Shown here: positions 10,985 to 27,097 of the stretch, piece after piece
Layout of the letters: every line of letters starts with the position of its first letter
Numbering within the stretch: position 1 is the stretch's first letter
DNA from: Bacteroidota bacterium
GTDB taxonomy: Bacteria; Bacteroidota; Bacteroidia; Chitinophagales; UBA10324
DNA: 35,178 nt
Assembly (NCBI GenBank): GCA_014190575.1
Contig: BJGQ01000035.1
Location: 1-35,178 of the forward strand
Reading direction: 5' to 3'
Notes under the pieces: model-generated
What the model saw: the letters and a program-made list of their open reading frames with translations, nothing else
The model's database searches: none
What the model was told of the DNA's origin: nothing
Program-made: the position numbers and the translations under genes

Positions 10985-12625
10985 TCATTCTTTAACAAAT
11001 TTCTTTCTGTAAATATTTCCAGAGGTTGTGTAAACAGAAATAAAATAAAATCCAGAACTGAGTTCGCTCACATTTATTGAAGCCGCTGATTCTTCGAACG
11101 GAAATGAAACCGTATTCACTTTTTCTCCCAATGAATTAAAAACTTCTATTGTTTTTATTTCTTCATCAGAATGAAGTTCAATAAACAACAATTGCGAAAC
11201 CGGATTCGGATAAATTTTCATAGAAGAAATTATAGCGACTGATTCTGTTTTCATTGCCGGAGTAGTAAAAGTTTTTATTGCGCCCCATGCACTCCACACT
11301 ATAGGACTTGAGCTACACTTACTTCTTACAGTCCATTGGTAAGCTGTTGAAGGCAATAAGGCTGTTATTATTTTAAATCCGGTGTTGGTGTTAATGTTCT
11401 TTGAAGTCCATGTTGTTGTTCCTGTTTTTCTGTATATGACTTGATATGCAACAGCGCATTGGTTGGTTGTCCATGTTAAAGTTGCTGCTGACGCAGTGAT
11501 GGTTGTTGCAATCAAATTGGTTGGCTTCGGACATGGATTGCAAACAACAGGAGTAGAAAATATTCGCTGATAATTTGTTGCATATGAGTATGCTCCATTG
11601 CAAGTACTCACTGCATCCCAGTTCACCGACCAGGTCATCATTCCTCGAAGAGTTGGATAACCACCTGAGAGTGAAAGCGTGTAATTGCCTGGTCTTGGTC
11701 CGGTTCCTCGCAAATAATCTATAGCATCTTTTACAACAGCTGTATCTGTGTACCCCCCACCTGCTGCCAATGAACATGAAGGTAAACCAATGGCAACTTT
11801 GCCTGGTGGTAAACCATTAAAAAATCCACCAGCAGTATTAAATCCATGAATCACTGCATCAGTCATTGCAATAATAAAATCTGCTGTGCCTTGTGTGTAA
11901 ATATTTCCATCAATGCCATACATGGAACCACTGTTGTATAACTGCACTTGTAAAATATCCAGTGAATCTCGCAGGGCGTTTATTACCGGAAGGTAAGCAC
12001 CCCATATACTTCCGTACGATGACTGCCCACCCTGCACAAATGCAGTTTCGGGAGCCATGGTAAGTAATAATTTTTTATTGTGTGAAGTGTGATAGCTCTG
12101 CATGATTTGTTTTACCGCATCAATAAGATTCAGAATTTTTGAATCGGTTGGATTTGCAATAGTTCCGCCACTCACTGTAACTGAACTTCCTTCAAAGTCA
12201 ATATCAATACCATCGAAACCATAAGTATTAATGATGCTGATCATTGAACTGATGAAACTATTTTTCTCATTTAAATTATCAAGCGAGATGGGTGAAGTTG
12301 CTCCACCCATGCTGATCAGTATTTTTTTTCCCTGACCTTGCATTGCTTGTATCTGAGAAATTAAAGTTGCCTGTGAAACCTGGTCGGGAGAAAACTGCAT
12401 ATTGTAATCAGTGCCTGCAACCGGAACAGCAAACGAAACTTCAACCACATTGTATCGCGGGTCAATTGCATTCAATTGAATGTATGGTGAACCCGGATCG
12501 CTCCAGTTATGCCAGTAACCCACCAATGCAGGATTCGGTATTTGGGCAAATGATTTTTCATTAACTAAATACAGAAATGAAATTAAGATTAGAATAAATT
12601 GAATTGCGCGAATTATTTTTTTCAT
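10985..12625 (-). CDS. Secreted GH18 chitinase with Fn3 domain and T9SS sorting domain
   Basis: This 546-residue exoenzyme should hydrolyse chitin or related beta-1,4-GlcNAc polymers. I start it at the ATG at 12625, because the protein then opens with a good signal peptide (MKKIIRAIQFILILISFLYL, cleavage after SFAQ); an upstream start at 12700 would bury it. The GH18 barrel spans about 33-360. It shows YWHNW at the start, KILISMGG, the catalytic DGIDIDFE (Asp138, Asp141, Asp143, proton donor Glu145), LLTMAPE and QVQLYN, so all key residues are intact. A fibronectin type III domain follows (about 364-457; CPKPTNLIA ... YQVIYRKTG ... YQWTVRSKC). The end (about 468-546) is a T9SS type A sorting domain starting KIYPNPVSQ. 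The domain order fits secretion outside the cell or surface display. No dedicated chitin-binding module is visible. The gene is transcribed alone, separated from the next operon by that operon's terminator. Confidence 0.93.
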   Translation of the reverse strand: MKKIIRAIQFILILISFLYLVNEKSFAQIPNPALVGYWHNWSDPGSPYIQLNAIDPRYNVVEVSFAVPVAGTDYNMQFSPDQVSQATLISQIQAMQGQGKKILISMGGATSPISLDNLNEKNSFISSMISIINTYGFDGIDIDFEGSSVTVSGGTIANPTDSKILNLIDAVKQIMQSYHTSHNKKLLLTMAPETAFVQGGQSSYGSIWGAYLPVINALRDSLDILQVQLYNSGSMYGIDGNIYTQGTADFIIAMTDAVIHGFNTAGGFFNGLPPGKVAIGLPSCSLAAGGGYTDTAVVKDAIDYLRGTGPRPGNYTLSLSGGYPTLRGMMTWSVNWDAVSTCNGAYSYATNYQRIFSTPVVCNPCPKPTNLIATTITASAATLTWTTNQCAVAYQVIYRKTGTTTWTSKNINTNTGFKIITALLPSTAYQWTVRSKCSSSPIVWSAWGAIKTFTTPAMKTESVAIISSMKIYPNPVSQLLFIELHSDEEIKTIEVFNSLGEKVNTVSFPFEESAASINVSELSSGFYFISVYTTSGNIYRKKFVKE

Positions 12626-12741
12626 AACTGTAGTTTTGTGTGAAAGAAAATTTATTCGTTCGAATATATTATGTGAAGAATAAAATTCAGTAAAAGACAA
12701 TAGCTATTTTTTTATCGGTAATCAATTGGCGATTTATTAAA

Positions 12742-12799: not shown

Positions 12800-14725
12800 T
12801 TACTTCAAATCCAAAAAGCCAATCACTTTAAATTCAGTGCGACGATTTTCCTGGTGTTGTTCTTCAGTACAACTTTCGCAAGAAGGTGCACACTTAACAG
12901 TTGGCATTGATTCACCATATCCTTTTGCTGTGATACGGTCTTTTGCAATTCCCTTACTGATTATATAGGCAACAGCGCTAACTGCTCTGCTTTGCGATAA
13001 TTTTTGGTTGTATGCATCTGTACCGCGGCAATCGGTATGCGAACTTAATTCTACTTTAATGCTCGGATTATCGTTCAGAATTTTTACCAGCTTATTTAAC
13101 TCTAATGCAGCATCCGGGCGAATGTTTGCTTTATCAAAATCATAATAAATATTCTTGAGTACGATTGGTTTGTTCAACTCAATTTTTTCCATCTCAATTT
13201 TTAATTTCACAATCATATCTTCCGATTGCTTCTTGCCTATTGTGCTGATGTCTTCTGTCTTTGAAAAATAGCCATCCTTATTCCCACTTACTGAATAGTC
13301 TGTATTTTCATTTAATTGAAACATGAAATTCCCATCGCTACCTGTGGTTGTATTTTCCTTTCGTCCGGTTTTTTTATTTAGCAATACAATGGTTGCACCC
13401 TGCACCGGTGTCTGATCCTTTTTATTTACAACAGAACCACTGAGTGTAAATTTTAAATCAGGCTTGCGAAAGTGATATATTTTATCATTGCTGCCATTAC
13501 TGCTTTCTCTGTTGCTCGAGAAATATCCGGTTTCGCCACCTTTTTCAGGAAGGTAACCAAAGTCGTCGTGTGATGTATTAATTGGATAACCAATATTGTG
13601 TGGACGGCTCCAGCTACTTCCTTCCTTAGTTGATGAATATATATCTAATCCACCTAATCCATATAATCCATCGGAAGCAAAGTATAAAACAGAATCATTT
13701 TCGATGTATGGAAACATTTCGTTCATCGGAGTGTTAATAGTTGCCCCCATATTTACGGGCGTACCCCAACCATCTCCTTCTTTTTTTACCATCCAGATAT
13801 CAGTTCCTCCTTGTCCACCCGGCATATCACTTACAAAATATATTGTTGCTCCACGATTGGCAATTGCAGGATGACCACAAGAATAATCATTGCTGTTAAA
13901 AGGTAACTCCTTTATGTTGTTCCATTCCCCGTTTTCATCTTTTGCACTTGAATATATTTTCATAAGCGCAATGTCTTCGCTGCTTTGTTTTATTTTTTTG
14001 TTGATGTAATTATTCCTTGTGAAATACATCGTGCTGCCATCAGGTGAAAAAGTTGCATCTGCATCGTGATACAATCCATTTACTGCACCTTTTAATAATT
14101 CAGGTGATGCAAAATTTCCTTCGCCGTTGTCTTTTGCATAATACAAATCAAGATAGTTATGCCCGGTCCATGCATATACTTTAGCGCTTGAATTCCGATC
14201 AGATGAAAAAACGATTCCTCCATTATAAAACACAGGTGCCATGCTTGAGCCGGTGTTGATGGCCACATCCTCCACAACATATTTTGATGAGTCCATTTTA
14301 AAATGATTGACTGAATCACATGAAGCAAGCATCATGGTTCCGGTTTTTTCATTTGGCATTTTTTGTAAATAAATATTCAGTATTCCTTTTGCGTCTTCAT
14401 AATTTCCATTCTCCATCATGGCTTGCGCACAGTATATAAAATCACTTGGCTTCGCATCAGGTAATCCAATTACTTCTTTGTACCACTTCTCTGCCATTGG
14501 TGCATTGTTTGACTGCCGGTAATCTTCAGCAAGCATTTTTTTTGCTTCCGGAAAATCTTTCATCGACAAACATTTTTCCAATTTCGGAATGGATTTATTG
14601 TATGCCATATCCTGATTGAACCGTTCACCTGCCAGGTAGTATGATCCTGCACAGCCGCTGAGTGTTAGCACCATCGCTGTAACAGGTATCAGATTTTTTA
14701 TTTTTAATAGAGTCATGTGTTTCAT
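12800..14725 (-). CDS. PorE-like OmpA-family lipoprotein (TPR, PD40 propeller, CRD, OmpA)
   Basis: This protein has 641 residues from the ATG at 14725; the TTG at 14740 is less likely. A lipoprotein signal ends in LTLSGC with Cys25 as the lipidated residue. TPR-like helices (about 30-140) precede a PD40/WD40-like propeller (about 145-430; VFSSDRNSSA, ATFSPDGSTMYFTRN, IYFVSDMPGGQGGTDIW, YFASDGLYGLGGLDIY, YFSSNRES). A carboxypeptidase-regulatory-like beta domain follows (about 440-515). An OmpA C-terminal domain closes it (about 525-635; NIYYDFDKANIRPDAA, LSSHTDCRGTDAYN, LSQSRA), keeping the Asp and Arg used to hold peptidoglycan. This architecture is that of PorE, a T9SS-associated protein, and of many PorE paralogues paired with PorP/SprF. 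It probably sits in the periplasm, tied to the outer membrane by lipid and to the wall by OmpA. It is the last gene of the operon, 29 bp after porP/sprF. I regard it as a paralogue dedicated to this operon, not necessarily the core PorE. Confidence 0.9.
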   Translation of the reverse strand: MKHMTLLKIKNLIPVTAMVLTLSGCAGSYYLAGERFNQDMAYNKSIPKLEKCLSMKDFPEAKKMLAEDYRQSNNAPMAEKWYKEVIGLPDAKPSDFIYCAQAMMENGNYEDAKGILNIYLQKMPNEKTGTMMLASCDSVNHFKMDSSKYVVEDVAINTGSSMAPVFYNGGIVFSSDRNSSAKVYAWTGHNYLDLYYAKDNGEGNFASPELLKGAVNGLYHDADATFSPDGSTMYFTRNNYINKKIKQSSEDIALMKIYSSAKDENGEWNNIKELPFNSNDYSCGHPAIANRGATIYFVSDMPGGQGGTDIWMVKKEGDGWGTPVNMGATINTPMNEMFPYIENDSVLYFASDGLYGLGGLDIYSSTKEGSSWSRPHNIGYPINTSHDDFGYLPEKGGETGYFSSNRESSNGSNDKIYHFRKPDLKFTLSGSVVNKKDQTPVQGATIVLLNKKTGRKENTTTGSDGNFMFQLNENTDYSVSGNKDGYFSKTEDISTIGKKQSEDMIVKLKIEMEKIELNKPIVLKNIYYDFDKANIRPDAALELNKLVKILNDNPSIKVELSSHTDCRGTDAYNQKLSQSRAVSAVAYIISKGIAKDRITAKGYGESMPTVKCAPSCESCTEEQHQENRRTEFKVIGFLDLK

Positions 14726-14754
14726 TTTTCCTGCTTGCAATTCTTATTCTGAAA

Positions 14755-15687
14755 TTAGAAATATCGAGGTGTTTTTACTTTCATAATGTCGTATCCGAAA
14801 TCGTATCCGATCATTATTTCATGTGAACCGTTTGAATAATTCTTTAACAATGAAGTTGTGAAGTCATAAGCATATCCGATGCGAAGCTGCTTGGTAGCCT
14901 GCAACTCAATCATCCCCACTGCCGCATCACCCGTACGATACGCTCCACCAATCCACAATACTTTTTTGATTAATAAATTCAGATTAAAATCAAATTCAAC
15001 CGGCGTGTTTTGCGAATATTTAATCAACATCGCTGGCCGTAAAACAAAATCAGGATTTATTTCTATTGCTCCGCCCATTGTAAAGAAGTAGTGTCGCACT
15101 TGCTTTGGAACAATGTTGTTTTGAATATTAAAACTTGCTGGTCGTGATGGATCGTAACTTAAAAGTTCAGGCACTGATAATCCCATGTAAAATTTATTGC
15201 TGTACATGTAGGCACCTGCGCCAAAGTTTGGAAGTATATTGCTCACTGATGATGGATCAAACAAAGCATCTGGTTTATCCCATACTACCAATTGGCTGAG
15301 TTTTGAATTGAAATATGAAATACCGCCGCGCAATCCTAAACCCAATTTTAATTTTTTATTCAACTGCATGTGGTATGCATAATTCGCATAAACATCATAG
15401 CGACTGGTAACACCTATTTTATCAGCAGCTAGTTCCAATCCCAATCCAACTTTGCGTGTGCGTGTGGGCCCGTGAATAGTTGCTACAAATGTTTTTGGTG
15501 CTCCATCAAATTTCACCCACTGATTGCGGTATAACAATGATGCTGAAGCATATCGTTTGCTTCCTGCATAAGCAGGATTCACCAACAGGTTGTTGAACAT
15601 GTACTGGCTCAACAATACATCCTGCTGCGCATACGATGCAAGTGACAGCATCGAGCAAAAAGTCAGAACAATTATTTTCTTTATCAT
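14755..15687 (-). CDS. PorP/SprF family type IX secretion outer-membrane protein
   Basis: This 310-residue beta-barrel protein starts with a signal peptide (MIKKIIVLTFCSMLSLASYA) and then the family hallmark QDVLLSQYMFNNLLVNPAYAG. Further family features are RNQWVKFDGAPKTFV, the repeated amphipathic strands, IGGAYRTGDAAVGMIELQ and the C-terminal HEIMIGYDF ending in Phe, as usual for an outer-membrane barrel. In gliding Bacteroidota, SprF is needed for export or surface attachment of SprB, and proteins with type B sorting domains depend on a cognate SprF-like partner. Here the gene lies 50 bp after a giant SprB-repeat protein with just such a C-terminus, so it is very likely that protein's partner. 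The length is normal for the family. Position 2 of the three-gene operon. Confidence 0.94.
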   Translation of the reverse strand: MIKKIIVLTFCSMLSLASYAQQDVLLSQYMFNNLLVNPAYAGSKRYASASLLYRNQWVKFDGAPKTFVATIHGPTRTRKVGLGLELAADKIGVTSRYDVYANYAYHMQLNKKLKLGLGLRGGISYFNSKLSQLVVWDKPDALFDPSSVSNILPNFGAGAYMYSNKFYMGLSVPELLSYDPSRPASFNIQNNIVPKQVRHYFFTMGGAIEINPDFVLRPAMLIKYSQNTPVEFDFNLNLLIKKVLWIGGAYRTGDAAVGMIELQATKQLRIGYAYDFTTSLLKNYSNGSHEIMIGYDFGYDIMKVKTPRYF

Positions 15688-15737: not shown

Positions 15738-18700
15738 TTATCTTCTCATGTCAACATATCCTGAAAGTGGTGTGGTCAGGTTGCTCGATTCGAAAATCAC
15801 GAAGTAGGTTCCATCAGGTAGTTTATCGCCACTGTTGTTGGTTCCATCCCACTCATTGTTGTAATTTTTCTTTTCGTAAACCTTATTACCCCATCGGTTA
15901 AACACCATTAAGTTGTTATCTGGATAATGAATTAATCCATGTATGACAAAGTAATCATTCGGGCCATCGCCGTTCGGTGAAAATCCGGTAGGCATTTGCA
16001 AAGTATCCTCGTTGCATTCTTCCGGTGGTTTCACTGTAATGATTAATGTGTCTGTAGCTATGCAATTTCCATCGGTCACAGTCCAAACGATAATGTTTTG
16101 TCCAACTGCTAATCCTGAAGTCGTAGATGATGGATCTGCTTCATTAGAGAATGTAATTCCATTATCAGAGCTACTCCATGTTCCGGAACCTGATGACATG
16201 CTTCCACTCAACTGAATATTTACAGTGTCGCATGTTGATTGATCGTTGCCTGCATCAGCATTTAAATCGGTTACTATAAGCGTAGCTGTGTCGGTGAATG
16301 TGCAGGTGCCATTTGATATTGTCCACACAAATACATTATTTGTATTTCCAAGTCCGGTTACTACTGTTACAGACAATGATGGGTCAGCAATATTTCCTGT
16401 TCCATTTATCAAGGTCCATGTTCCGGTATATCCTGTTGGAAGTGTTGCTGTTAATGTTCCATCAGTTCCGCAAGCTATAGTAGTTCCACCTCCTGTGAAT
16501 GTTGGTGGAGCTGGGTTATCTAAAGTTGCTGTTGCCACATCAGAACATCCGGTTGCATCTGTAACTGTAACAGTATAAGTACCTGAAGAAAGTCCTGAAA
16601 CCGTTAGAGTGGTTGAACCATTTGACCATATGTAACTAAAAGGTGCTATGCCTCCAGTTGTGTTTACTGATAAAGCTCCGTTTGTTGCATCATGACAAGA
16701 AATGTTTACATCTGTATTTATGCTCGCTGTAATTGCTATTGCTGGATCAACTATGGCTGAGAGAGTATCGGTGCAACCATTCGCATCAGTCACTGTTACA
16801 AAATAAGTTCCTGCTGCAATTGCGTTAAGGTCTTGCGCTGTTTCAGAGTTACTCCAGTTATAATTGTAAGGTGATGTTCCGCCAGCTACACTAATATCTA
16901 TTGCCCCACTGAGTAAATTCTGACAGTTTACATCTGTGATAGAAACTATTGTTGCATCTAAAACTAACGGCTGTGTGATAACAACATTTGTGGTATCAGA
17001 ACAACCGTGCGCATCGGTTACAGTTACAAAATAAGTTGCGGCTAGCAATCCTGTGATAGTATCGTTGACAGAAGTTGTTGACCATAAATAAGTGTATGGT
17101 GCTGTTCCGCCTGATGCTGTTACTACTGCCACACCGGTTGCATTGCCGTTACAATTTACTTCAAGTGATTGGGTGGCTGTTGCATTTAATGGTTGTGGTT
17201 CAGTTAAATTAACTGTTGCAGTTGCTGTGCATCCATTGGCATCGGTTATTGTTACAGTATAATTTCCAGCTGCAACATTTGCTAAATCTTCAGTGGTTGC
17301 TCCGTTGCTCCAATTGAAATTGTATGCCGCAGTTCCACCTGATACAGTTAGATTTATTGTATCGGAATTTATCCCTGAGCATGAAATGGAATCAGTTATT
17401 GTTATGTTGGCTATCAATTGCATTGGTTCATTCACACTGAATGAATCTATCGCTTGACAATTATTTACATCTGTTACAGTAACATAATAAATATTACCGC
17501 TGATGTTTGTTAAGTCTTCAGTAGTTGCGCCATTTGACCATGAATAAGAATAGGCTGCTGTACCACCCATAATAGTAATATCAATACCACCATTCAAACT
17601 TCCAAAACAAGTGACATTGGTAATGACAGTATCCATTATCATTAACACATCTGGTTCAGTAATATTTGCTGTGCCAGTTGCAGTACATCCGTTAGCATCT
17701 GAAACAGTTACATTATAAATAGCAGGATCTAAACCTGTTAGGTCTTCTGTTGTTTCTCCATTGCTCCAGTTAAATGTATAAGGTGCTGTGCCACCACTCG
17801 GTGTTAAATCTATTGAACCATCTGCTGCACCATTACAAGTTACATTGGTTGGATTTATTGCTGATGCATTAACGGCAGTTGGCTGATCAACAATTGTACT
17901 TGCAATAGTTGAACATCCATTCACATCAATAACAGTAACAGCATAAGCACCTGCTATTACACCTGTTAAATCTTCTGTTGTAGCTCCGTTGCTCCATGTA
18001 TAGGTGAATGGCGCTTGTCCATCAGTAACAGTTAAATCAACTGAACCCGTTGTATCACCAAAACATCCTGAAACATTTGTTGGATCAGCAACCGCTGTCG
18101 GACTTCCTACCTGAACAATATCAAGTGATGTTGCAATCACAGTTGTACATCCATTGGCATCAGTAACAGTTACATTATATGATCCTTCACTAAGTAATGA
18201 TAAATCTTGTGTGGTTGCGCCATTGTTCCAGTTATAACTATATCCTGGTGTTCCACCTGTAACAGAAATATCTATTGAACCTGTTCCTGCAGCAGTACAA
18301 CCAAGTGTGTCAGTCCACGCATCAACAGAAATTGTTAAGGCAAGTGGTTCGGTAATTAAATCTGAAGTTGTTGCTGTACATCCATTAGCATCAGTAACTG
18401 TTACATCATAAGTACCCGGACAAAGATTATTTAATGAAGCAGTAGTTGAACCATTGCTCCATTGATAATTGTAAGGCGAAGTTCCACCTGAAACAGTTAA
18501 TACAACACTTCCGTCGCACGCACCAAAACATGTAACATTTGTTGAAGAAGCTGCAACTGTCGCAATTAATAATTGTGGTTCAGTAACTGTTGCACTTGTA
18601 GTTGTTGAACATCCGTTTACATCCAATACAGTTACAGAATATATTCCTGCTGTTAATCCTGATATGTTCTGGCTGGTTTCGCCATTGCTCCATGTGTATG

Positions 18701-21700
18701 TAAAGGGTGCCAGTCCATCAGTAATTGTTAAATCAATTGCTCCATTTGAATTTCCAAAACATCCGGTCACATTTGTAATTGTTGTTGATGCAATCGGATG
18801 ATCAACCTGAACAATTGTTAAATCCGCAGATAATGTTGTAGTGCATCCATTGGCATCAGTGATCGTTACATTATAAGTTCCTGCAGATAGACCTGATAAA
18901 TCCTGAGTAGTTGATCCGTTGCTCCAGTTATATGAATAAGCAGTTGTTCCACCTGAAACTGAAATATCAATTGCGCCTGTCCCTGTTGCATTGCAACCGA
19001 GCGTATCAGAGAAAGTGATTACTGAAGCAGATAAAACCACTGGTTCCGTAATTATTGAACTTGTTGTTGCTGTGCATCCATTGGCATCTGTTACTGTTAC
19101 ACTAAATGTTCCAGGAGAAAGATTAATCAGCGCCGAAGTAGTATTTCCATTTGACCAATTGTAATTATACAATGGAGTTCCACCTGAAACATTTAAAACT
19201 ACAGTTCCATCGGCTGCACCATTGCATGTAACATTTGTAGATGATGCTGAAACAGTAGCAATTAACAATGCTGGTTCGGTAACGGTCGCGCTTGCGGTTG
19301 TTGAACATCCGTTTACATCCAATACTGTTACGGAATAAACTCCAGCCACAAGCGTTGATAAATCCTGTGTGGTTGAGCCATTGCTCCAAGAATAAGTAAA
19401 GGGCGCCTGTCCATCTGTAATTGTTAAATCAATTGCTCCATTTGAATTTCCAAAACATCCGGTCACATTTGTAATTGTTGTTGATGCAATCGGATGATCA
19501 ACCTGAACAATTGTTAAATCCGCAGATAATGTTGTAGTGCATCCATTGGCATCAGTGATCGTTACATTATAAGTTCCTGCAGATAGACCTGATAAATCCT
19601 GAGTTGTTGATCCGTTGCTCCAGTTATAAGAATATGCAGTTGTTCCACCAAAAACTGAAATATCAATTGCACCTGTTCCTGTTGCATTACAACCGAGTGT
19701 ATCCGTATAAGAAGTAACTGTTGCAGATAAAGTCAAGGGCTGTGTAATGATTGAAGTAGAAGTTGCAGAGCAACCATTCGCATCTGTTACTGTTACACTA
19801 AATGTTCCAGGAGAAAGATTAATCAGCGCCGAAGTAGTATTTCCATTTGACCAATTGTAATTATAAACCGGTGTTCCACCTGATACCGAAAGTGAAATAC
19901 TCCCATCACCATTTCCATTACATGAAACATTTTGAACTGTTGGTGAAATTGTAAGCACTAATGGTTCAACTAAAATTATTGTTGAACTTGTGGTTGCTGT
20001 ACATCCATTTGCATCGGTAACAGTAACACTGAAAGTTCCTCCTGCTAAACCAGATAAATCCTGAGTGGTGGCACCGTTGCTCCAGTTATAAATATATGCT
20101 GCAGTACCTCCTGCAACAGTTAAATCTACTGCTCCATTATTTGCTCCATTACAAGTTGGACTGCTTGAACTACTGATTGAAGCAGTTAAAATTATCGGCT
20201 CGTTTATGGTATAAGAAGTTGTGTATGAACAATTATTTACATCGGTAACAGTTACTGAATATGTTCCACCTGAAAGATTGGTTAAGTCTTCGTTTGTAGA
20301 ACCATTGCTCCAAATAAAAATATAAGGAGGCAATGTTCCACCAATGACAGTAATATCTATGTTACCATCACCTGCGCCATTACAAGAAACATTGGTTATA
20401 ACCTGAGTTGAAATTGTAAGCACATCAGGTTGAACTAAATTTTCTGTTTTAACAACATTGCATCCATTAGCATCGGTTATTGTAACTGTATATGCTCCAG
20501 CGCCAAGACCTGAAATGTTGGCAGTTGTTGCTCCGTTCGACCATATATAATTATATGGACTAGCACCACCTGTTACAGTTGAATTTATATAACCATCAGT
20601 TGCCCCATTACATGTTACACCGTTTTCATTGTAACTGGATGGAGTAAGTGTGGCATTTAAATTTCCTGATTGAGTAAGTGTGATTGACGAAACATTTGTA
20701 CAGCCATTGGCATCAGTAACTGTTACACTAAATGTTCCTGCTCCTATTGCTGATAAATCTTGCGTGGTTGCTCCGTTCGACCATAAATAAGTGTATGGAC
20801 TTGCACCGCCTGTTACGGTTAAATCAATGCTTCCATCATTGCCTATGCAAGTAACATTATATCCGCCAGCGAAAGTTGGTGAGATAGGTGTTAAACCAAT
20901 TGTATCAGGTTCGGTTAAAGTGACAGATGTTGAAACTGTACAACCATTCAAGTCAGTTACAGTTACAGAATAAATTCCTGCTCCAACATTTGATAAATCT
21001 TGCGTGGTTGATCCATTGCTCCAATTATAAGAGAATGGAGAAGTTCCTCCTGCAGGTGTTAAATCAATTGAGCCGTTTACACTTCCACTACATGCAATAT
21101 TGTATCCGCCATTATAAGTTGATGAAACGGTTGGAGATGTTAATGGTGTTGGTTGCGTGATTGTTGATGTCGCAGTTGTTGAGCAATTATTTGCGTCGGT
21201 TACCGTGACAGTATAAGTGCCTGCACTAAGTGAACTTAAGTCTTGGGTAGTTGCTCCATTGCTCCAGATATATGTAAATGGTGATGCTCCGCCAGTAACT
21301 GTTAAATCAATACTTCCATCAGAATTTCCATTGCATGAAATATTATTTCCATTGTATGAAGAAAGTGTGGCGCCAAGTGTCAATGTTGTTGATTGAATTA
21401 GTGTAACAGTTCCTGTACTTGTACAACCATTCGCATCAGTAATTGTGACATCATATGTTCCGGCAGAAAGCCCGGATAAATCTTGAGTGGTTGCACCAGT
21501 ACTCCATAAATAAATAAACGGTGCTGTTCCACCTGTTATGGTTAAATCAATGCTTCCATCATTTCCCAAACAGGTAACATTAAATCCTCCATTGAAAGTT
21601 GGACTTATTAAAGTTGAAACAAGAGTATCGGGTTGTGTTAAAGTAACTGAATCAATAGCAGGGCAACCATTCGCATCATTGACTACTACACCATAAGTTC

Positions 21701-24700
21701 CTGCAGTCAACCCTGTGATATCCTGAGTAGTTTCTTCGTTTGTCCATTCGTAAGTATAAGGTCCTGTTCCACCTGTAACTGTTAAATCAATTGAACCATT
21801 TGATGACCCATAGCAACCCACATTACTTCCACCATAAGTTGAAAGAAAAAATGAAAGAACAACTGGAGTTGGTTCAGTAAGTGTTTTACTTCCTGAACTT
21901 GTGCATCCATTTACATCAGTGATAGTAACTGAATATGTGCCTGCTGTAAGAGAACCTAAATCTTGTGTAGTTTCTCCATTGCTCCAGATAAAAGTATATG
22001 GAGAAGTACCACCACTAATACTAGTTGTAATAATTCCATCAAACAATCCATTGCAACTTATGTTAAATCCTCCAGCAAAAGTAGGACTTGTTAATGTTGG
22101 TGAAACAGTAGCTGGTTCAGTAAGTGTAATGCTTGATGTAATTGTACATCCATTTGCATCGGTAACAGTAACCGCATAAGTTCCTGCTCCAATTGAAGAA
22201 AGGTTTTGTGTTGTTGATCCATTACTCCACAAATAAGTATAAGGCGAAACTCCGCCTGTAACTGTTACTGAAATACTACCATCAGTACTTCCGTTGCAAG
22301 ACAAATTTGTTCCACCTGTTACCGTAGGAGAAACTAAAACAGGAGCAATTGGTATTGGCTCGGTCAGCGTTTCAGAAGAAATTGCAGTACAACCATTGGC
22401 ATCAGTTACTGTTACTGAATATGTTCCTGCTGAAAGTGAATTAATGTCTTGTGTTGTGGCTCCGTTACTCCATGAATAAGAGTATGGAGAAGTTCCACCT
22501 GTAACAGTTGCATCAATGCTTCCATTGGTTGCGCCGTCACAGCCAACATTATATCCATTATAACCGGATAGTGTTGAAGATATTGTTATGGGAGCTGGCT
22601 CGGTAAAGGTAAATGAATCTTGATTTGAACATCCGTTCAAGTCATAAACTGTAACACTTATTGTTCCTGCACCTAATCCCGAAACTGATGAAGAAGTTGC
22701 TCCATTACTCCATAAATAGGTATAGGGCAATGAACCACCGGTTGCTGAAACAGAAGCTGAACCATCAGTTCCTCCGTTACAAGTAACATTTGTTCCACCA
22801 TTAACTGTTACACCTGTAATAAGTGGAACAAGTATAACCGGTTCAGTTAATGTTACTGACCCTGTGCCTGAGCATCCATTCGCATCGTTTACAGTCACGC
22901 TGTAAGTTCCTGCTGTGAGGTTTATTAAATTTTGTGTAGTAGCTCCATTGCTCCATATATAATTATAAGGCGAAGCTCCACCGCTAACAGAAGTATTTGC
23001 AGATCCACTTGATTCACCATTACATCCTATATTATATCCACCCCCGTTTACCGGGCTTGTAACTGTAACACTTAAAGGTGCAGGTGGAGTTATTGTATAA
23101 GTTTGAGAAGCAGTACATCCGTTCAAATCAAAAACTGTTACAGTATAATTTCCTGCTGCTAGTCCTGTAATATCTTGTGTTAAACCTCCATTCGACCAGA
23201 AATATAAATAAATTGGAGTTCCACCACTTACTGATATAAATATTCCACCATTGCTTGCTCCGTTACAACTTGTACCGAAGCCATTGTAATTTTTCAAACT
23301 ATCAAGTGCAATTGTGATTGGTCCGCCTGGTTGTGTTAAGGTTAAAGAGCCATTGCCTAAACATCCGTTCGCATCAGTAATTGTTACGCTCACTGTTCCT
23401 GCAATTAAACCTGAAATGCCTGATGTAGTTGCACCCGTACTCCATAAGTAAGAATAAGGCAATGTACCACCTGTAGCTGTTACCGATGCAGTTCCAGTTG
23501 CATCTCCATAGCATGCAACATTTACTCCGTTAACCGAGGTACTTGTTATTACCGGAACTACAACTCCCGGTTGTGTTATTATTTGAGATCTTGTTGCAGT
23601 ACATCCGTGAGCATCAGTTATTGTTACAATATAAGTTCCAGCGCTTAATCCACTAAGGTCTTGGGTTGTTGCTCCATTGCTCCATAAATAGTTATATGGG
23701 GATGTTCCGCCAATAACCGTTAAATCAATTGCTCCGGTTGATTGGCCGTTGCAACTTACATTAGTAGTTGAGGTAACTGATGAACTTAATGTTGCCGGTT
23801 GAGTAATTGTTGTACTTCCGGTTTTTGTACATCCGTTGGCATCTGTTATTGTTACTGAATATGTAACACCACCTGATAATCCTGTGGCTGTTTGAATTGT
23901 TTGACCATTGCTCCATAAATAAGTGTAAGGAGCAATACCTCCGGTTGGCGTCGCAGTTCCTGTTGCATTTGTACTTCCATTACAGTTAGCCGAAGTTGAA
24001 GTAACAGACAGAGCCAGAGCAGCAGGTTGAGTTAGCGTAACAGTTGTATCTTTTGTACAACCATTAACATCAGTAATTGTAATACCATAGGTTCCAGCCG
24101 CCAATCCATTAATAGTTTGAGTAGTTGCTCCGGTTGACCAATGGTAGCCAATAGGTGTTTGATTACCGCTAACATTAGCAGTAACGGAACCATTACTTCC
24201 TGCATTGCAACTGATTTGGTATCCATTATAGGTAGGACTAACAAAAGTTATAATGTGCCTAGGAACAACTATTGAGTAGGAATAAATCTGGAATGCATTG
24301 TAATTACAATTATCATCTCTAACAGTTACTGTAAAAGTATATGGTTGATCTCGGGCATCAAGTAAAGTAGGACTCCAGCAAAAAGTTCCAACAGGATAAT
24401 TCGGACTTGCGCCTCCTTGATTTGCAATTGTAAATGTTGAGCCTGGAATTGAAGTTGTAGATGTTGAGGTCATGGTAATATGTTGACCAATATTTCCATC
24501 ATTGGAATTAATAGTAAAGCAGGTTGATCCACCAGGACAAATAATAGTTGAGTAATTTGATGTGCCGTTTATTCCGGAAGCTGTAGGAAGTAAATTTGTT
24601 CCACAATCTTTAATCCAGAACTGCATATCTCGAATAACGCTTCCGATTAATACTCCACCTCTGTATTCTTTGACTAAAACCGCACAAACTGCAACTTGTC

Positions 24701-25487
24701 CAACAGTTGTTGGTGTCATTGTAATATCACCCGTTGAAGAATTAATTGCAACTGCTGGCGTTGATGTCAACCAATTGGTTGCACTATAACCAGCAAGAAA
24801 TCCAACATCAACTGTTGAACTTCTTTTGGGATTAATAAAGGAATACGACAATGAATCTCCATTTGGGTCAACAACTCCATGATTAAATGTGAAAGCCTGA
24901 TTGGAACAAACAAATGCGACAGGAATATTTGTAAAAGTTGGAGAACTGTTATGATTAGCTGCAACATTATTTAAAAATGCTTCAACATATAATGCATTAC
25001 CAGTTGATGAATTGTTACAATTTGCCTGATTTGTTATTGTACTGATTGCACAATTCCGACAACAAACTGAATAACTGAATATCCAATCAACACATTGTGT
25101 TGGTAGAGTTACATTTCCACGATAGGTATATTGTTGTACTCCGGGATTTGTTCCACCATTACAATAAGTAAATGTTGGATTACATGGAAAAGTTATTTCC
25201 TGTCCGGTTCCTGCAATAGGATTAAGTGTAACATTAAAATTTTGTGCACAGCTTGTTGACTTTACATTTAAAGTAACAGTATTAGGAGCAGCTACTCCCT
25301 GACAATCTCTGTAAAAATTTACTGTGATTTCATAAATATTTCCTGAAATCCAGCGATAAGTTAAATCGGACCCGGCCGCGTGCGTTGCGTAAGCATTATT
25401 GGAAACACCAATGAATCCAATAGCAATAAAAAAACTAATAATTAAAAAAGCGGACCTATGAAGGATCGTTTTGTATTGATTAAGCAT
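15738..25487 (-). CDS. Giant SprB-repeat surface protein with T9SS type B (gliding motility) C-terminus
   Basis: This 3249-residue secreted protein (about 330 kDa) is the first gene of the operon. The N-terminus has a signal peptide with a hydrophobic run (AFLIISFFIAIGFIGV), cleaved near NAYA-THAAG. Residues about 37-410 form a beta-rich, Cys-rich N-terminal region beginning THAAGSDLTYRWISGNIYEI, as found ahead of many gliding-type adhesins. Residues about 411-2992 are 33 tandem SprB repeats of 75-82 residues, each with a C-x-G motif, a GG.(S/A)PY.Y.WSNG core, an AGTY.VTVTDANGC strand and a closing TEP or TQP. Two Ig/PKD-like domains follow (about 2993-3155; ADAGNDQSTC). The C-terminus (MPTGFSPNGDGPNDYFVI ... 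FNRWGNKVYE ... DGTYFVIFE) is the T9SS type B domain. The likely role is a long surface filament or adhesin for gliding, attachment or polysaccharide binding. Motility itself cannot be inferred from one protein. Confidence 0.95.
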   Translation of the reverse strand: MLNQYKTILHRSAFLIISFFIAIGFIGVSNNAYATHAAGSDLTYRWISGNIYEITVNFYRDCQGVAAPNTVTLNVKSTSCAQNFNVTLNPIAGTGQEITFPCNPTFTYCNGGTNPGVQQYTYRGNVTLPTQCVDWIFSYSVCCRNCAISTITNQANCNNSSTGNALYVEAFLNNVAANHNSSPTFTNIPVAFVCSNQAFTFNHGVVDPNGDSLSYSFINPKRSSTVDVGFLAGYSATNWLTSTPAVAINSSTGDITMTPTTVGQVAVCAVLVKEYRGGVLIGSVIRDMQFWIKDCGTNLLPTASGINGTSNYSTIICPGGSTCFTINSNDGNIGQHITMTSTSTTSIPGSTFTIANQGGASPNYPVGTFCWSPTLLDARDQPYTFTVTVRDDNCNYNAFQIYSYSIVVPRHIITFVSPTYNGYQISCNAGSNGSVTANVSGNQTPIGYHWSTGATTQTINGLAAGTYGITITDVNGCTKDTTVTLTQPAALALSVTSTSANCNGSTNATGTATPTGGIAPYTYLWSNGQTIQTATGLSGGVTYSVTITDANGCTKTGSTTITQPATLSSSVTSTTNVSCNGQSTGAIDLTVIGGTSPYNYLWSNGATTQDLSGLSAGTYIVTITDAHGCTATRSQIITQPGVVVPVITSTSVNGVNVACYGDATGTASVTATGGTLPYSYLWSTGATTSGISGLIAGTVSVTITDANGCLGNGSLTLTQPGGPITIALDSLKNYNGFGTSCNGASNGGIFISVSGGTPIYLYFWSNGGLTQDITGLAAGNYTVTVFDLNGCTASQTYTITPPAPLSVTVTSPVNGGGYNIGCNGESSGSANTSVSGGASPYNYIWSNGATTQNLINLTAGTYSVTVNDANGCSGTGSVTLTEPVILVPLITGVTVNGGTNVTCNGGTDGSASVSATGGSLPYTYLWSNGATSSSVSGLGAGTISVTVYDLNGCSNQDSFTFTEPAPITISSTLSGYNGYNVGCDGATNGSIDATVTGGTSPYSYSWSNGATTQDINSLSAGTYSVTVTDANGCTAISSETLTEPIPIAPVLVSPTVTGGTNLSCNGSTDGSISVTVTGGVSPYTYLWSNGSTTQNLSSIGAGTYAVTVTDANGCTITSSITLTEPATVSPTLTSPTFAGGFNISCNGLFDGIITTSISGGTSPYTFIWSNGETTQDLGSLTAGTYSVTITDVNGCTSSGSKTLTEPTPVVLSFFLSTYGGSNVGCYGSSNGSIDLTVTGGTGPYTYEWTNEETTQDITGLTAGTYGVVVNDANGCPAIDSVTLTQPDTLVSTLISPTFNGGFNVTCLGNDGSIDLTITGGTAPFIYLWSTGATTQDLSGLSAGTYDVTITDANGCTSTGTVTLIQSTTLTLGATLSSYNGNNISCNGNSDGSIDLTVTGGASPFTYIWSNGATTQDLSSLSAGTYTVTVTDANNCSTTATSTITQPTPLTSPTVSSTYNGGYNIACSGSVNGSIDLTPAGGTSPFSYNWSNGSTTQDLSNVGAGIYSVTVTDLNGCTVSTSVTLTEPDTIGLTPISPTFAGGYNVTCIGNDGSIDLTVTGGASPYTYLWSNGATTQDLSAIGAGTFSVTVTDANGCTNVSSITLTQSGNLNATLTPSSYNENGVTCNGATDGYINSTVTGGASPYNYIWSNGATTANISGLGAGAYTVTITDANGCNVVKTENLVQPDVLTISTQVITNVSCNGAGDGNIDITVIGGTLPPYIFIWSNGSTNEDLTNLSGGTYSVTVTDVNNCSYTTSYTINEPIILTASISSSSSPTCNGANNGAVDLTVAGGTAAYIYNWSNGATTQDLSGLAGGTFSVTVTDANGCTATTSSTIILVEPLVLTISPTVQNVSCNGNGDGSISLSVSGGTPVYNYNWSNGNTTSALINLSPGTFSVTVTDANGCSATSTSIITQPLTLSATVTSYTDTLGCNATGTGAIDISVFGGTTAYSYNWSNGSTTQDLSGLSAGTYNVTITDANGCTTTLSADLTIVQVDHPIASTTITNVTGCFGNSNGAIDLTITDGQAPFTYSWSNGSTTQDLSTLVAGVYSVTVLDVNGCSTTASATVTEPALLIATVSASSTNVTCNGAADGTVVLNVSGGTPLYNYNWSNGNTTSALINLSPGTFSVTVTDANGCTATTSSIITEPVVLSASVITFSDTLGCNATGTGAIDISVSGGTTAYSYNWSNGSTTQDLSGLSAGTYNVTITDANGCTTTLSADLTIVQVDHPIASTTITNVTGCFGNSNGAIDLTITDGLAPFTYTWSNGETSQNISGLTAGIYSVTVLDVNGCSTTTSATVTEPQLLIATVAASSTNVTCFGACDGSVVLTVSGGTSPYNYQWSNGSTTASLNNLCPGTYDVTVTDANGCTATTSDLITEPLALTISVDAWTDTLGCTAAGTGSIDISVTGGTPGYSYNWNNGATTQDLSLLSEGSYNVTVTDANGCTTVIATSLDIVQVGSPTAVADPTNVSGCFGDTTGSVDLTVTDGQAPFTYTWSNGATTEDLTGVIAGAYAVTVIDVNGCSTIASTIVDQPTAVNASAINPTNVTCNGAADGSIDLTPSGGTAPYTFNWSNGETTEDLTGLDPAIYNVTVSDANGCTATGTANITEPDVLMIMDTVITNVTCFGSLNGGIDITIMGGTAAYSYSWSNGATTEDLTNISGNIYYVTVTDVNNCQAIDSFSVNEPMQLIANITITDSISCSGINSDTINLTVSGGTAAYNFNWSNGATTEDLANVAAGNYTVTITDANGCTATATVNLTEPQPLNATATQSLEVNCNGNATGVAVVTASGGTAPYTYLWSTTSVNDTITGLLAATYFVTVTDAHGCSDTTNVVITQPLVLDATIVSITDVNCQNLLSGAIDISVAGGTSPYNYNWSNSETAQDLNAIAAGTYFVTVTDANGCTDTLSAIVDPAIAITASINTDVNISCHDATNGALSVNTTGGIAPFSYIWSNGSTTLTVSGLSSGTYTVTVTDATGCSDVATATLDNPAPPTFTGGGTTIACGTDGTLTATLPTGYTGTWTLINGTGNIADPSLSVTVVTGLGNTNNVFVWTISNGTCTFTDTATLIVTDLNADAGNDQSTCDTVNIQLSGSMSSGSGTWSSSDNGITFSNEADPSSTTSGLAVGQNIIVWTVTDGNCIATDTLIITVKPPEECNEDTLQMPTGFSPNGDGPNDYFVIHGLIHYPDNNLMVFNRWGNKVYEKKNYNNEWDGTNNSGDKLPDGTYFVIFESSNLTTPLSGYVDMRR
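16512..24255 (-). repeat. 33 tandem SprB repeats, about 234 bp each
   Basis: These are coding repeats inside the giant surface protein. I counted 33 units by hand, each ending near TEP/TQP and each containing one Cys before the GG core and one in the NGC (or NNC/TGC) motif. Units 19-27 (about 17880-19970) form three tandem copies of a three-unit block with a 232-residue (696-bp) period. Confidence 0.9.
18721..19604 (-). repeat. 188-bp perfect direct repeat spaced 696 bp
   Basis: The 188 bases at 18721-18908 are identical to those at 19417-19604. With the same offset, 19085-19159 matches 19781-19855 over 75 bp. The copies fall in SprB units 20/21 and 23/24, and 19 and 22. They mark a recent duplication or gene conversion within the gene. 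Confidence 0.9.
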
Positions 25488-25777: not shown

Positions 25778-27097
25778 ATGGGTGTTTTAAAAAACAAATT
25801 TAGAGAGATTTCAGGACCTGTTGCTCAGGAAGTAAAAGCATTGATAAAAGATCACGGTAATCTTGAACTTGGTACATATACAATAGATCAGGCGTATGGT
25901 GGCATGAAGGAAATTAAAGCATTGGTGACTGAGACTTCATTACTGGATTCAGTAGAAGGAATTCGTTTCCGTGGTTACACTATCCCTGAGTTGAGTGAAA
26001 AATTACCGAAAGCAGAAGGGTGCACTGAGCCATTGCCCGAAGGATTATTTTATCTGATGCTCACTAATGAGTTACCTTCTCACAGCGATGTTGAACACAT
26101 AAGTAATACATGGGCACGCCGTGGAATTGTTCCGCATCATGTATTTAAAGTTTTAGATGAACTTCCGAAAACAACCCATCCTATGACACAATTCAGTATA
26201 GCTGTTATGGCTTTACAAACTGAAAGTGTTTTTGCAAAAAAATATCGTGATGGAATAAGCAAGAAGGATTACTGGGATCCGATGTTTGAAGACTCAATGA
26301 ATCTGATTGCCCGATTGCCTCGTGTGGCTGCATATATCTACCGCAGAACATATCACAATGACAAACACATTGAACCTGATTCGCAATTGGATTGGGCTGC
26401 AAACTTTGCGCACATGCTTGGCTTTGATAATCCATCATTCAAAAGTTTGATGCGATTATATATGACTATTCATGCTGATCATGAGGGAGGAAATGTTTCT
26501 GCTCACAGTACACACTTGGTTGGTTCTGCATTGAGTGATGCTTATCTTTCTTTCACAGCAGGAATGAATGGATTGGCAGGACCGTTACATGGACTCGCTA
26601 ATCAGGAGGTGATTCGATGGGTGATGCAAATGCAAAAAGAAATTGGTTCGAAGAGTCCGAGTGAAGAACAGATTGCAGATTACATACACAAAACTTTAAC
26701 CGAAGGAAAAGTTGTTCCGGGTTATGGTCATGCAGTTTTGCGCAAAACTGATCCTCGCTTTACCGCGCAAATGGAGTTTGCAAAAAAATATTGTCCTGAT
26801 GATGAATTGGTGAATACAGTTTGGAGAATTTATAAAGTTGCTCCTCCAATTTTAGAAAGCACCGGAAAAATAAAAAACCCGTGGCCGAATGTGGATGCTC
26901 ACTCTGGTTCATTGCTGGTTCATTATGGGTTGGTGGAGTATGATTTCTATACAGTGCTGTTCGGTGTATCGCGCGCGTTGGGAGTTTTAACTTCGTTGTG
27001 CTGGGATCGTGCGCTTGGTTATGGAATTGAGCGACCAAAGTCAGTTACTACTGAATGGATTAAATCTTATATCGCTTCGAAGTCAGTGAAATCTTAG
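25778..27097 (+). CDS. gltA: Citrate synthase, eukaryotic (mitochondrial-like) type
   Basis: This 439-residue TCA-cycle enzyme condenses oxaloacetate and acetyl-CoA to citrate. The catalytic triad is present: His271 ([14 protein letters not shown]), His318 ([16 protein letters not shown]) and Asp373 ([10 protein letters not shown]). The sequence follows the eukaryotic-type branch rather than the common bacterial Glt[53 protein letters not shown] and the closing [14 protein letters not shown] are all mitochondrial-style. Bacterial members of this branch are known, including in Bacteroidota. This branch is generally dimeric and lacks the NADH-sensing N-terminus of Gram-negative hexameric GltA, which is indeed absent here. 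There is no targeting peptide. The gene is monocistronic, with a good -7 box 28 bp upstream and a terminator 24 bp downstream. Confidence 0.95.

Follow-up and report, generated by a model that had tools for sequence, protein, structure and literature searches.

Probable recent gene conversion in patches on an old three-unit block duplication in a giant SprB-repeat gene of a Bacteroidota bacterium

Concerted evolution by gene conversion is known in repeated genes, and SprB of Flavobacterium johnsoniae, which has SprF as its carrier, is a gliding adhesin with repeats and about 6500 amino acids (aa) in length. The C-terminal tail of that SprF holds a Cys-X-Cys motif, through which it bonds to GldK and without which movement along the track is not sustained (PMC12635249), and the title of a reference in the same article gives a sprB operon with sprC and sprD. 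For the periscope proteins SasG, Rib and Sgo_0707, intragenic recombination between highly identical repeats has been proposed to change repeat number (PMC8201768). Titles and abstract openings, a coverage outside which most subscription journals lie, yielded no gene conversion or block-wise repeat change for SprB-repeat genes. Here we analyse a stretch of 35178 bases (the window), which is one entire contig of a 3.19 Mb draft genome in 91 contigs from a Bacteroidota bacterium of the Chitinophagales. It carries the gene of a giant adhesin-like protein of 3249 aa, in which an old duplication of a three-unit block appears to have been overwritten in places by recent gene conversion.

Judged from the sequence, the product is a giant cell-surface protein of the type B class of the type IX secretion system (T9SS), built of SprB/immunoglobulin-like (Ig-like) units. 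A signal-peptide-like start, assigned by eye, is followed by an N-terminal domain to about aa 470, by 33 units of 76-82 aa (unit segmentation) and by a CHU_C sorting domain. Pfam finds 33 stretches of the SprB repeat PF13573 and one CHU_C (91.3 bits, cut-off 27), and NCBIfam the type B sorting domain TIGR04131 (47.7 bits, cut-off 35); by these domains the predicted protein belongs to the SprB-repeat, type B class. It thus resembles SprB in its repeats, its sorting domain and an adjacent PorP/SprF carrier gene, but it is only about half the size of SprB.

Within the array, three consecutive units recur as a higher-order block (Table 1). The three copies (W1, W2 and W3) are each exactly 232 codons (696 bp) long, are made of units of 77, 77 and 78 aa, and stand in register without indels. 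The preliminary description of this DNA had proposed exactly this arrangement, and it had the region right, although its limits of 17880-19970 lie about 50 bp out of phase with the unit boundaries at 17931-20018. It had also called the third copy more diverged, which agrees with the identities: 82.2% nt and 79.3% aa between copies 1 and 2, compared to 70.1% nt and 69.8% aa between copies 2 and 3 and 65.7% nt and 61.2% aa between copies 1 and 3. Over all 33 units, similarity at lag 3 is 60.8% nt, compared to 55.2-57.0% at the remaining lags from 1 to 9, and this lag-3 mean was matched in none of 5000 shuffles of unit order. The excess sits mainly in the block region and is weaker in the first half of the array. 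Single units are on average 55.3% identical (nt) to their neighbours, while identity at lag 3 reaches a maximum of 88%. Like the periscope proteins, the array is made of tandem surface modules, but its units are too diverged from each other and the recombining element is the three-unit block. Tandem Repeats Finder, whose longest period of 500 is below 696, reported no repeat in the window.

The identity of copies 1 and 2 is not spread evenly. At an offset of 696 bp the longest exact run is 188 bp (tract A), whereas every other offset from 60 to 2999 gives at most 30 bp, so that both the 696-bp diagonal and the 188-bp stretch proposed for it were recovered as described. The second exact run reported at the same offset exists as well, but measures 86 bp (tract B) and not 75. 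These two tracts are the sole direct exact repeats of at least 40 bp in the window, where no inverted exact repeat of at least 40 bp was found. When synonymous codons were shuffled with the protein kept (n=300), the longest run at this offset had a median of 18 and a maximum of 41 bp, and the 188-bp run is therefore beyond what protein similarity explains. Inside the tracts, copies 1 and 2 differ at 0 of 48 synonymous sites (tract A) and 0 of 20 (tract B), whereas copy 3 differs from both at 27.4 of the 48 synonymous and 38.6 of the 138 nonsynonymous sites of tract A, which bears out the expected depletion of synonymous differences relative to the third copy. In the remaining 143 codons, the synonymous divergence (dS) between copies 1 and 2 is 0.84, near the values of 1.04 for copies 2 and 3 and 1.11 for copies 1 and 3. 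The longest concordant run of polymorphic sites between copies 1 and 2 takes up 66 of 279 sites, a length reached in none of 20000 shuffles, and the segment of high identity around tract A extends over 308 bp at 95.8%, compared to the period of 696 bp. The locus thus bears a hallmark of gene conversion, a bounded tract without synonymous differences within an otherwise diverged pair of paralogous sequences.

The age of the block can be read from five other genomes of the genus (G001-G005), each from a different species. In all five, an orthologue of citrate synthase (95.0-98.4% aa) adjoins the adhesin orthologue, and in the four relatives with a C-terminal piece of the gene (G003, G005, G002 and G001), orthologues of the carrier (89.7-92.9% aa) and of the following OmpA protein (72.4-91.8% aa) come after it; in G004 no close C-terminal part of the adhesin gene was found (best 32% identity). 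The only unbroken orthologue is that of G003, with 3259 aa and 33 SprB stretches. It has two of the 232-aa blocks, compared to three in the window gene, and in both G003 and G005 the first half of the array includes an additional 241-aa block of three units, where the window gene has one block fewer. The periodicity itself is shared: lag-3 identity was matched in 0 of 5000 shuffles in G003, and for the partial genes of G005 and G004 the outcome was 0 of 5000 and a share of 0.0008, respectively. Fragments of G002 broken inside the block were left out as a block, and G001 contributed its last block. W1 is nearest to the first block of G005, G005_1 (82.0% nt, a near tie with W2 at 82.2% owing to the tracts), followed by G003_1 (76.6%), while W3 is nearest to the last block of G001 (85.1% nt). 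The N-terminal dS from the window gene to G005, G004, G003 and G002 is 1.0, 1.3, 1.43 and 1.46, respectively (G001 left out). Since orthologues of block 1 occupy the same position in G005 and G003, the block duplication is older than the split from these two species.

The relationship between blocks depends on the part of the block that is compared. Block starts group mostly by position; in the tract region, two genomes have their blocks grouped by species instead. Over the first 150 nt (60-nt windows), G005_1 is matched by W1 at 0.82-0.88 and by W2 at only 0.52-0.63; mid-block, same-genome blocks are closer than orthologues in the window gene and in G003, and in G004 at a different place. The trees conflict accordingly. 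In tract A, W1 groups with W2 (ultrafast bootstrap 98) and G003_1 with G003_2 (97), whereas outside the tracts W1, G003_1 and G005_1 are split from all other blocks with a support of 97. In tract B, W2 joins W1, G003_1 and G005_1 (split support 96), and because this places W2 among block-1 sequences, copy 1 was probably the donor of tract B. G004 has an exact tract of its own, 92 bp at block nt 298-389, and none of 5000 shuffles gave one as long. G004_2 being partial (198 of 232 aa), the ten-block shuffle test was made on the first 594 nt, and identities of pairs with this block cover the shorter length; the block alignment of conserved unit cores covers 8 of the 10 blocks, all but G005_1 and G004_2. 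Bounded tracts free of synonymous differences and the clustering within species of part of the repeat are what concerted evolution shows elsewhere, and we regard the present case as the same kind, acting here on a higher-order block inside one coding sequence.

The reading that we favour, with a probability of roughly 0.8, is an old duplication of three-unit blocks followed by recent and patchy gene conversion between blocks 1 and 2, without recent growth of the array. In this reading, the array was built by old duplications of three-unit blocks, as comparison with the relatives shows. Unequal homologous recombination between blocks would add or remove a whole block between species now and then; the difference in block number is observed, and this mechanism is the one we propose for it. 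The latest step would have been short non-reciprocal copying that made parts of blocks 1 and 2 identical, in tracts of about 190-300 bp and 86 bp, probably from block 1 to block 2 in tract B and in either direction in tract A. Judging by the separate tract of G004, copying of this kind has occurred repeatedly in the genus, a proposal that rests firmly on G004, with G003 added by the tree. The units would make up a rod holding the N-terminal domain out from the cell, with CHU_C anchoring the protein to the adjacent SprF-like carrier, as is known for the family.

A number of observations weigh against this reading. When only synonymous differences are used, the shuffle share is 0.00435 for copies 1 and 2, with 0.0304 and 0.0224 for the other two pairs, and in the full test the pair W2-W3 also reaches 204 of 20000. 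The tract A tree does not group the two G005 blocks and joins G004_1 and G004_2 with a support of only 53. The outside-tract tree puts G004_1 with G004_2 (60) and not with the other first blocks, whereas in the tree of the first 150 nt G004_1 falls outside the second-block group (93); support within that group outside the tracts is 40-65, except for W3 with the last block of G001 (99). The cross-species pairs W1/G003_1 and W2/G005_1 score 0.0092 and 0.0184 in the shuffle test. Values near 0.01 are therefore background, the 0.0138 of the same-genome pair of G005 is no evidence, and the 0.137 of G003 counts as negative, so that only the window gene and G004 (0 shuffles) stand out. Finally, the species is represented by a single genome, and by the assembly only, so that the allele of another lineage could have recombined in; and since the k-mer length was probably 127, shorter than the 188-bp tract, the number of copies is a lower bound and the assembler could conceivably have taken a wrong path.

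If unequal crossing-over had recently amplified the three-unit block as a whole, as the preliminary description proposed, this would explain the period of exactly 232 codons, the long exact runs and the variation of block number between species. An unequal exchange of 696 bp, however, leaves at least 696 identical bases, and the latest event is therefore unlikely to have been of this kind: the exact runs cover only 188 and 86 of the 696 bp, and the rest of the pair stands at a dS of 0.84, a contrast that largely refutes this explanation. Together with the orthology of block 1 in G005 and G003, this makes such a recent step quite unlikely, and the claim that the newest growth step is recent is not supported. 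What survives of it is that the array evolves in three-unit blocks, as seen in the lag-3 peak and in the 232-aa and 241-aa blocks by which G003 differs. The tracts could instead have come from the gene of another strain by homologous recombination, and not from a sister block of the same gene; sharply bounded tracts with a dS of 0 would likewise be expected. Such an import is improbable, as each tract agrees with the sister block at exactly the corresponding positions, and the block-1-type sequence in tract B of copy 2 requires a step between blocks in some strain anyway. Selection for an identical sequence, through protein or RNA constraint and with no recent copying, fits the position of the tract over conserved unit cores, but is hardly credible given the divergence of copy 3 at both synonymous and nonsynonymous sites of tract A, the limit of 41 bp reached by the codon shuffles, and the identity of W1 to G005_1 and G003_1, which drops to 0.62-0.83 over windows 421-541.

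A further alternative is an assembly artefact, in which a short-read assembler created or mis-resolved the repeat, and in its favour the contigs of G004, G005, G001 and G002 start or stop within the block region or at its margin. Elsewhere in the genome, two gaps of 10 N in repeat-rich genes (L111 1373-1382 and L114 5508-5517) have exact 127-bp overlaps on both sides. These overlaps are probably artefactual duplications that reveal the k-mer length and point to a de Bruijn assembler run at k=127, which would have had to resolve the longer 188-bp tract. No N occurs in the window itself, and blocks 1, 2 and 3 differ from each other at their junctions and in their first unit, so that three blocks and both junctions must have been read. 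By reasoning on the graph, the assembled path is the only one that uses the loop once, and hidden identical copies are possible. We thus consider it very unlikely that the repeat is an artefact. The differences outside the tracts give a solid basis for three distinct blocks and for their junctions; extra identical copies would have collapsed, and the block number is by this reasoning a minimum.

Another SprB-repeat gene of the same genome (L110, on G000:C23, with an open frame of 3329 aa) serves as a comparison. It contains 10 exact runs of at least 60 bp, and among the 8 listed, 7 are of partial period and 1 of full period; since L110 shows both, the marks left by partial and full-period events can be told apart. 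Its exact repeats include one of 370 bp at offset 1161, and at offset 207 the full-period case extends over 327 bp with an exact repeat of 287 bp. On these grounds L110 appears to be a better candidate for recent growth than the block of the window.

Table 1. Positions of the adhesin-like gene, its block copies and identical tracts, and of neighbouring genes in the window
Feature	Position	Strand	Remarks
Giant T9SS type B surface protein gene	15738..25487	-	3249 aa; open reading frame call
Three-unit block copy 1 (W1)	19323..20018	-	aa 1824-2055
Three-unit block copy 2 (W2)	18627..19322	-	aa 2056-2287
Three-unit block copy 3 (W3)	17931..18626	-	aa 2288-2519
Tract A in copy 1	19417..19604	-	identical to 18721-18908
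Tract A in copy 2	18721..18908	-	identical to 19417-19604
Tract B in copy 1 (probable donor)	19780..19865	-	identical to 19084-19169
Tract B in copy 2 (probable recipient)	19084..19169	-	identical to 19780-19865
PorP/SprF family carrier gene	14755..15687	-	downstream, co-oriented; PF11751 264.5 bits, TIGR03519
PD40 + CarboxypepD_reg + OmpA protein gene	12800..14740	-	Pfam / NCBIfam
Citrate synthase gene	25778..27097	+	divergent neighbour, synteny marker; PF00285

The preliminary description had named the gene SprB, an identity that the neighbouring genes render doubtful. The window locus differs from that of F. johnsoniae in having a divergent citrate synthase gene upstream and, beyond the PorP/SprF gene, an OmpA/PorE-like gene with PD40 downstream. 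The sprC/sprD operon is not at this locus; the rest of the genome was not searched for sprC and sprD. The OmpA protein resembles CHU_0125 (502.7 bits, cut-off 620) and PorE (438.1 bits, cut-off 600) and stays below both cut-offs. In contrast to F. johnsoniae SprF with its Cys-X-Cys, the carrier of the window has no cysteine in its C-terminal tail, which ends in KTPRYF, and its sole cysteine lies in the signal-peptide-like start. The C-tail cysteine is also missing in all four carrier orthologues examined. A CxC motif in the last 60 residues occurs in none of the 12 PorP/SprF paralogues of the genome, while 10 of the 12 carry one or more cysteines within the final 10 residues; the window carrier and L099 have none. 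Of the gliding machinery, homologues of GldB (217.1 bits, cut-off 190) and GldD (241.5 bits, cut-off 120) pass their cut-offs in the genome, whereas a GldJ-like protein falls short, its best stretch scoring 345.6 against a cut-off of 458.2. From the sequence of its tail, a carrier without C-tail cysteine may mark an adhesin that is unattached to the gliding track, and the adhesin of the window may be statically anchored and not track-driven. Beside the adhesin cluster, at 10985-12700, lies the gene of a GH18 (chitinase-type) protein whose sorting tail is of T9SS type A.

Structural comparison gave the following picture. The best predicted structure of one block has a mean predicted local distance difference test (pLDDT) of 73.8 and a predicted template modelling (pTM) score of 0.48, and four further models have values of 52.2 to 33.6. 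By fold search the one-block model has an Ig-like strand arrangement, although none of the 50 matches listed exceeds a template modelling (TM) score of 0.35 to the model; its best match is a fragment of GhpA (E 8.9e-06). Searched against the PDB with phmmer, the three blocks gave a single, weak match, 4ler (E 0.015). A search with the whole protein likewise matches GhpA of Aureispira (PDB 9flp and others; E 6.6e-44, and 1.9e-50 with a C-terminal query), with the last 253 aa as the best stretch, and the T9SS type B sorting end lies within what the two proteins share. Membership among the GhpA grappling hooks was rejected, as only the C-terminal part matches well and aa 1-470 have no match in the PDB at E up to 1.

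The relatives hold further variants of such genes. In the orthologue of G002 (L053, L071), the first repeat unit is followed almost at once by a unit belonging to the 232-aa block, in which the contig ends; the adhesin gene of this species may be much shorter, or misassembled. Pieces in G003 (L052/L069), G004 (L050) and G005 (L051/L070) resemble a second, paralogous giant gene made mostly of 75-aa units, and in the genome of the window no second match to the N-terminal domain exceeds 39% identity.

With 33 SprB stretches each, the window gene (3249 aa) and the orthologue in G003 (3259 aa) agree in unit number despite the extra 232-aa block in one and the extra 241-aa block in the other, and the pieces of G005, if joined by a 136-bp overlap, give about 3260 aa. 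It is a speculative and rather doubtful idea that blocks are gained and lost while selection holds the total unit number constant. If it were true, selection would act on rod length, and conversion would serve to keep the blocks able to recombine. Two complete genes cannot settle the matter and their equal total length is a curiosity, but an equal unit number reached with different blocks makes it a testable question whether adhesin length is under selection.

What we describe are repeat dynamics of an ordinary sort, in an adhesin of a known kind. As a worked case, it indicates that a long perfect repeat in a giant adhesin can be a recent homogenisation on an old duplication and not growth, and that dS inside compared to outside the tract tells the two apart. 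Short-read genomes of such organisms would accordingly undercount identical blocks. For the family, the locus also suggests that SprB repeats alone do not make a protein a gliding adhesin.

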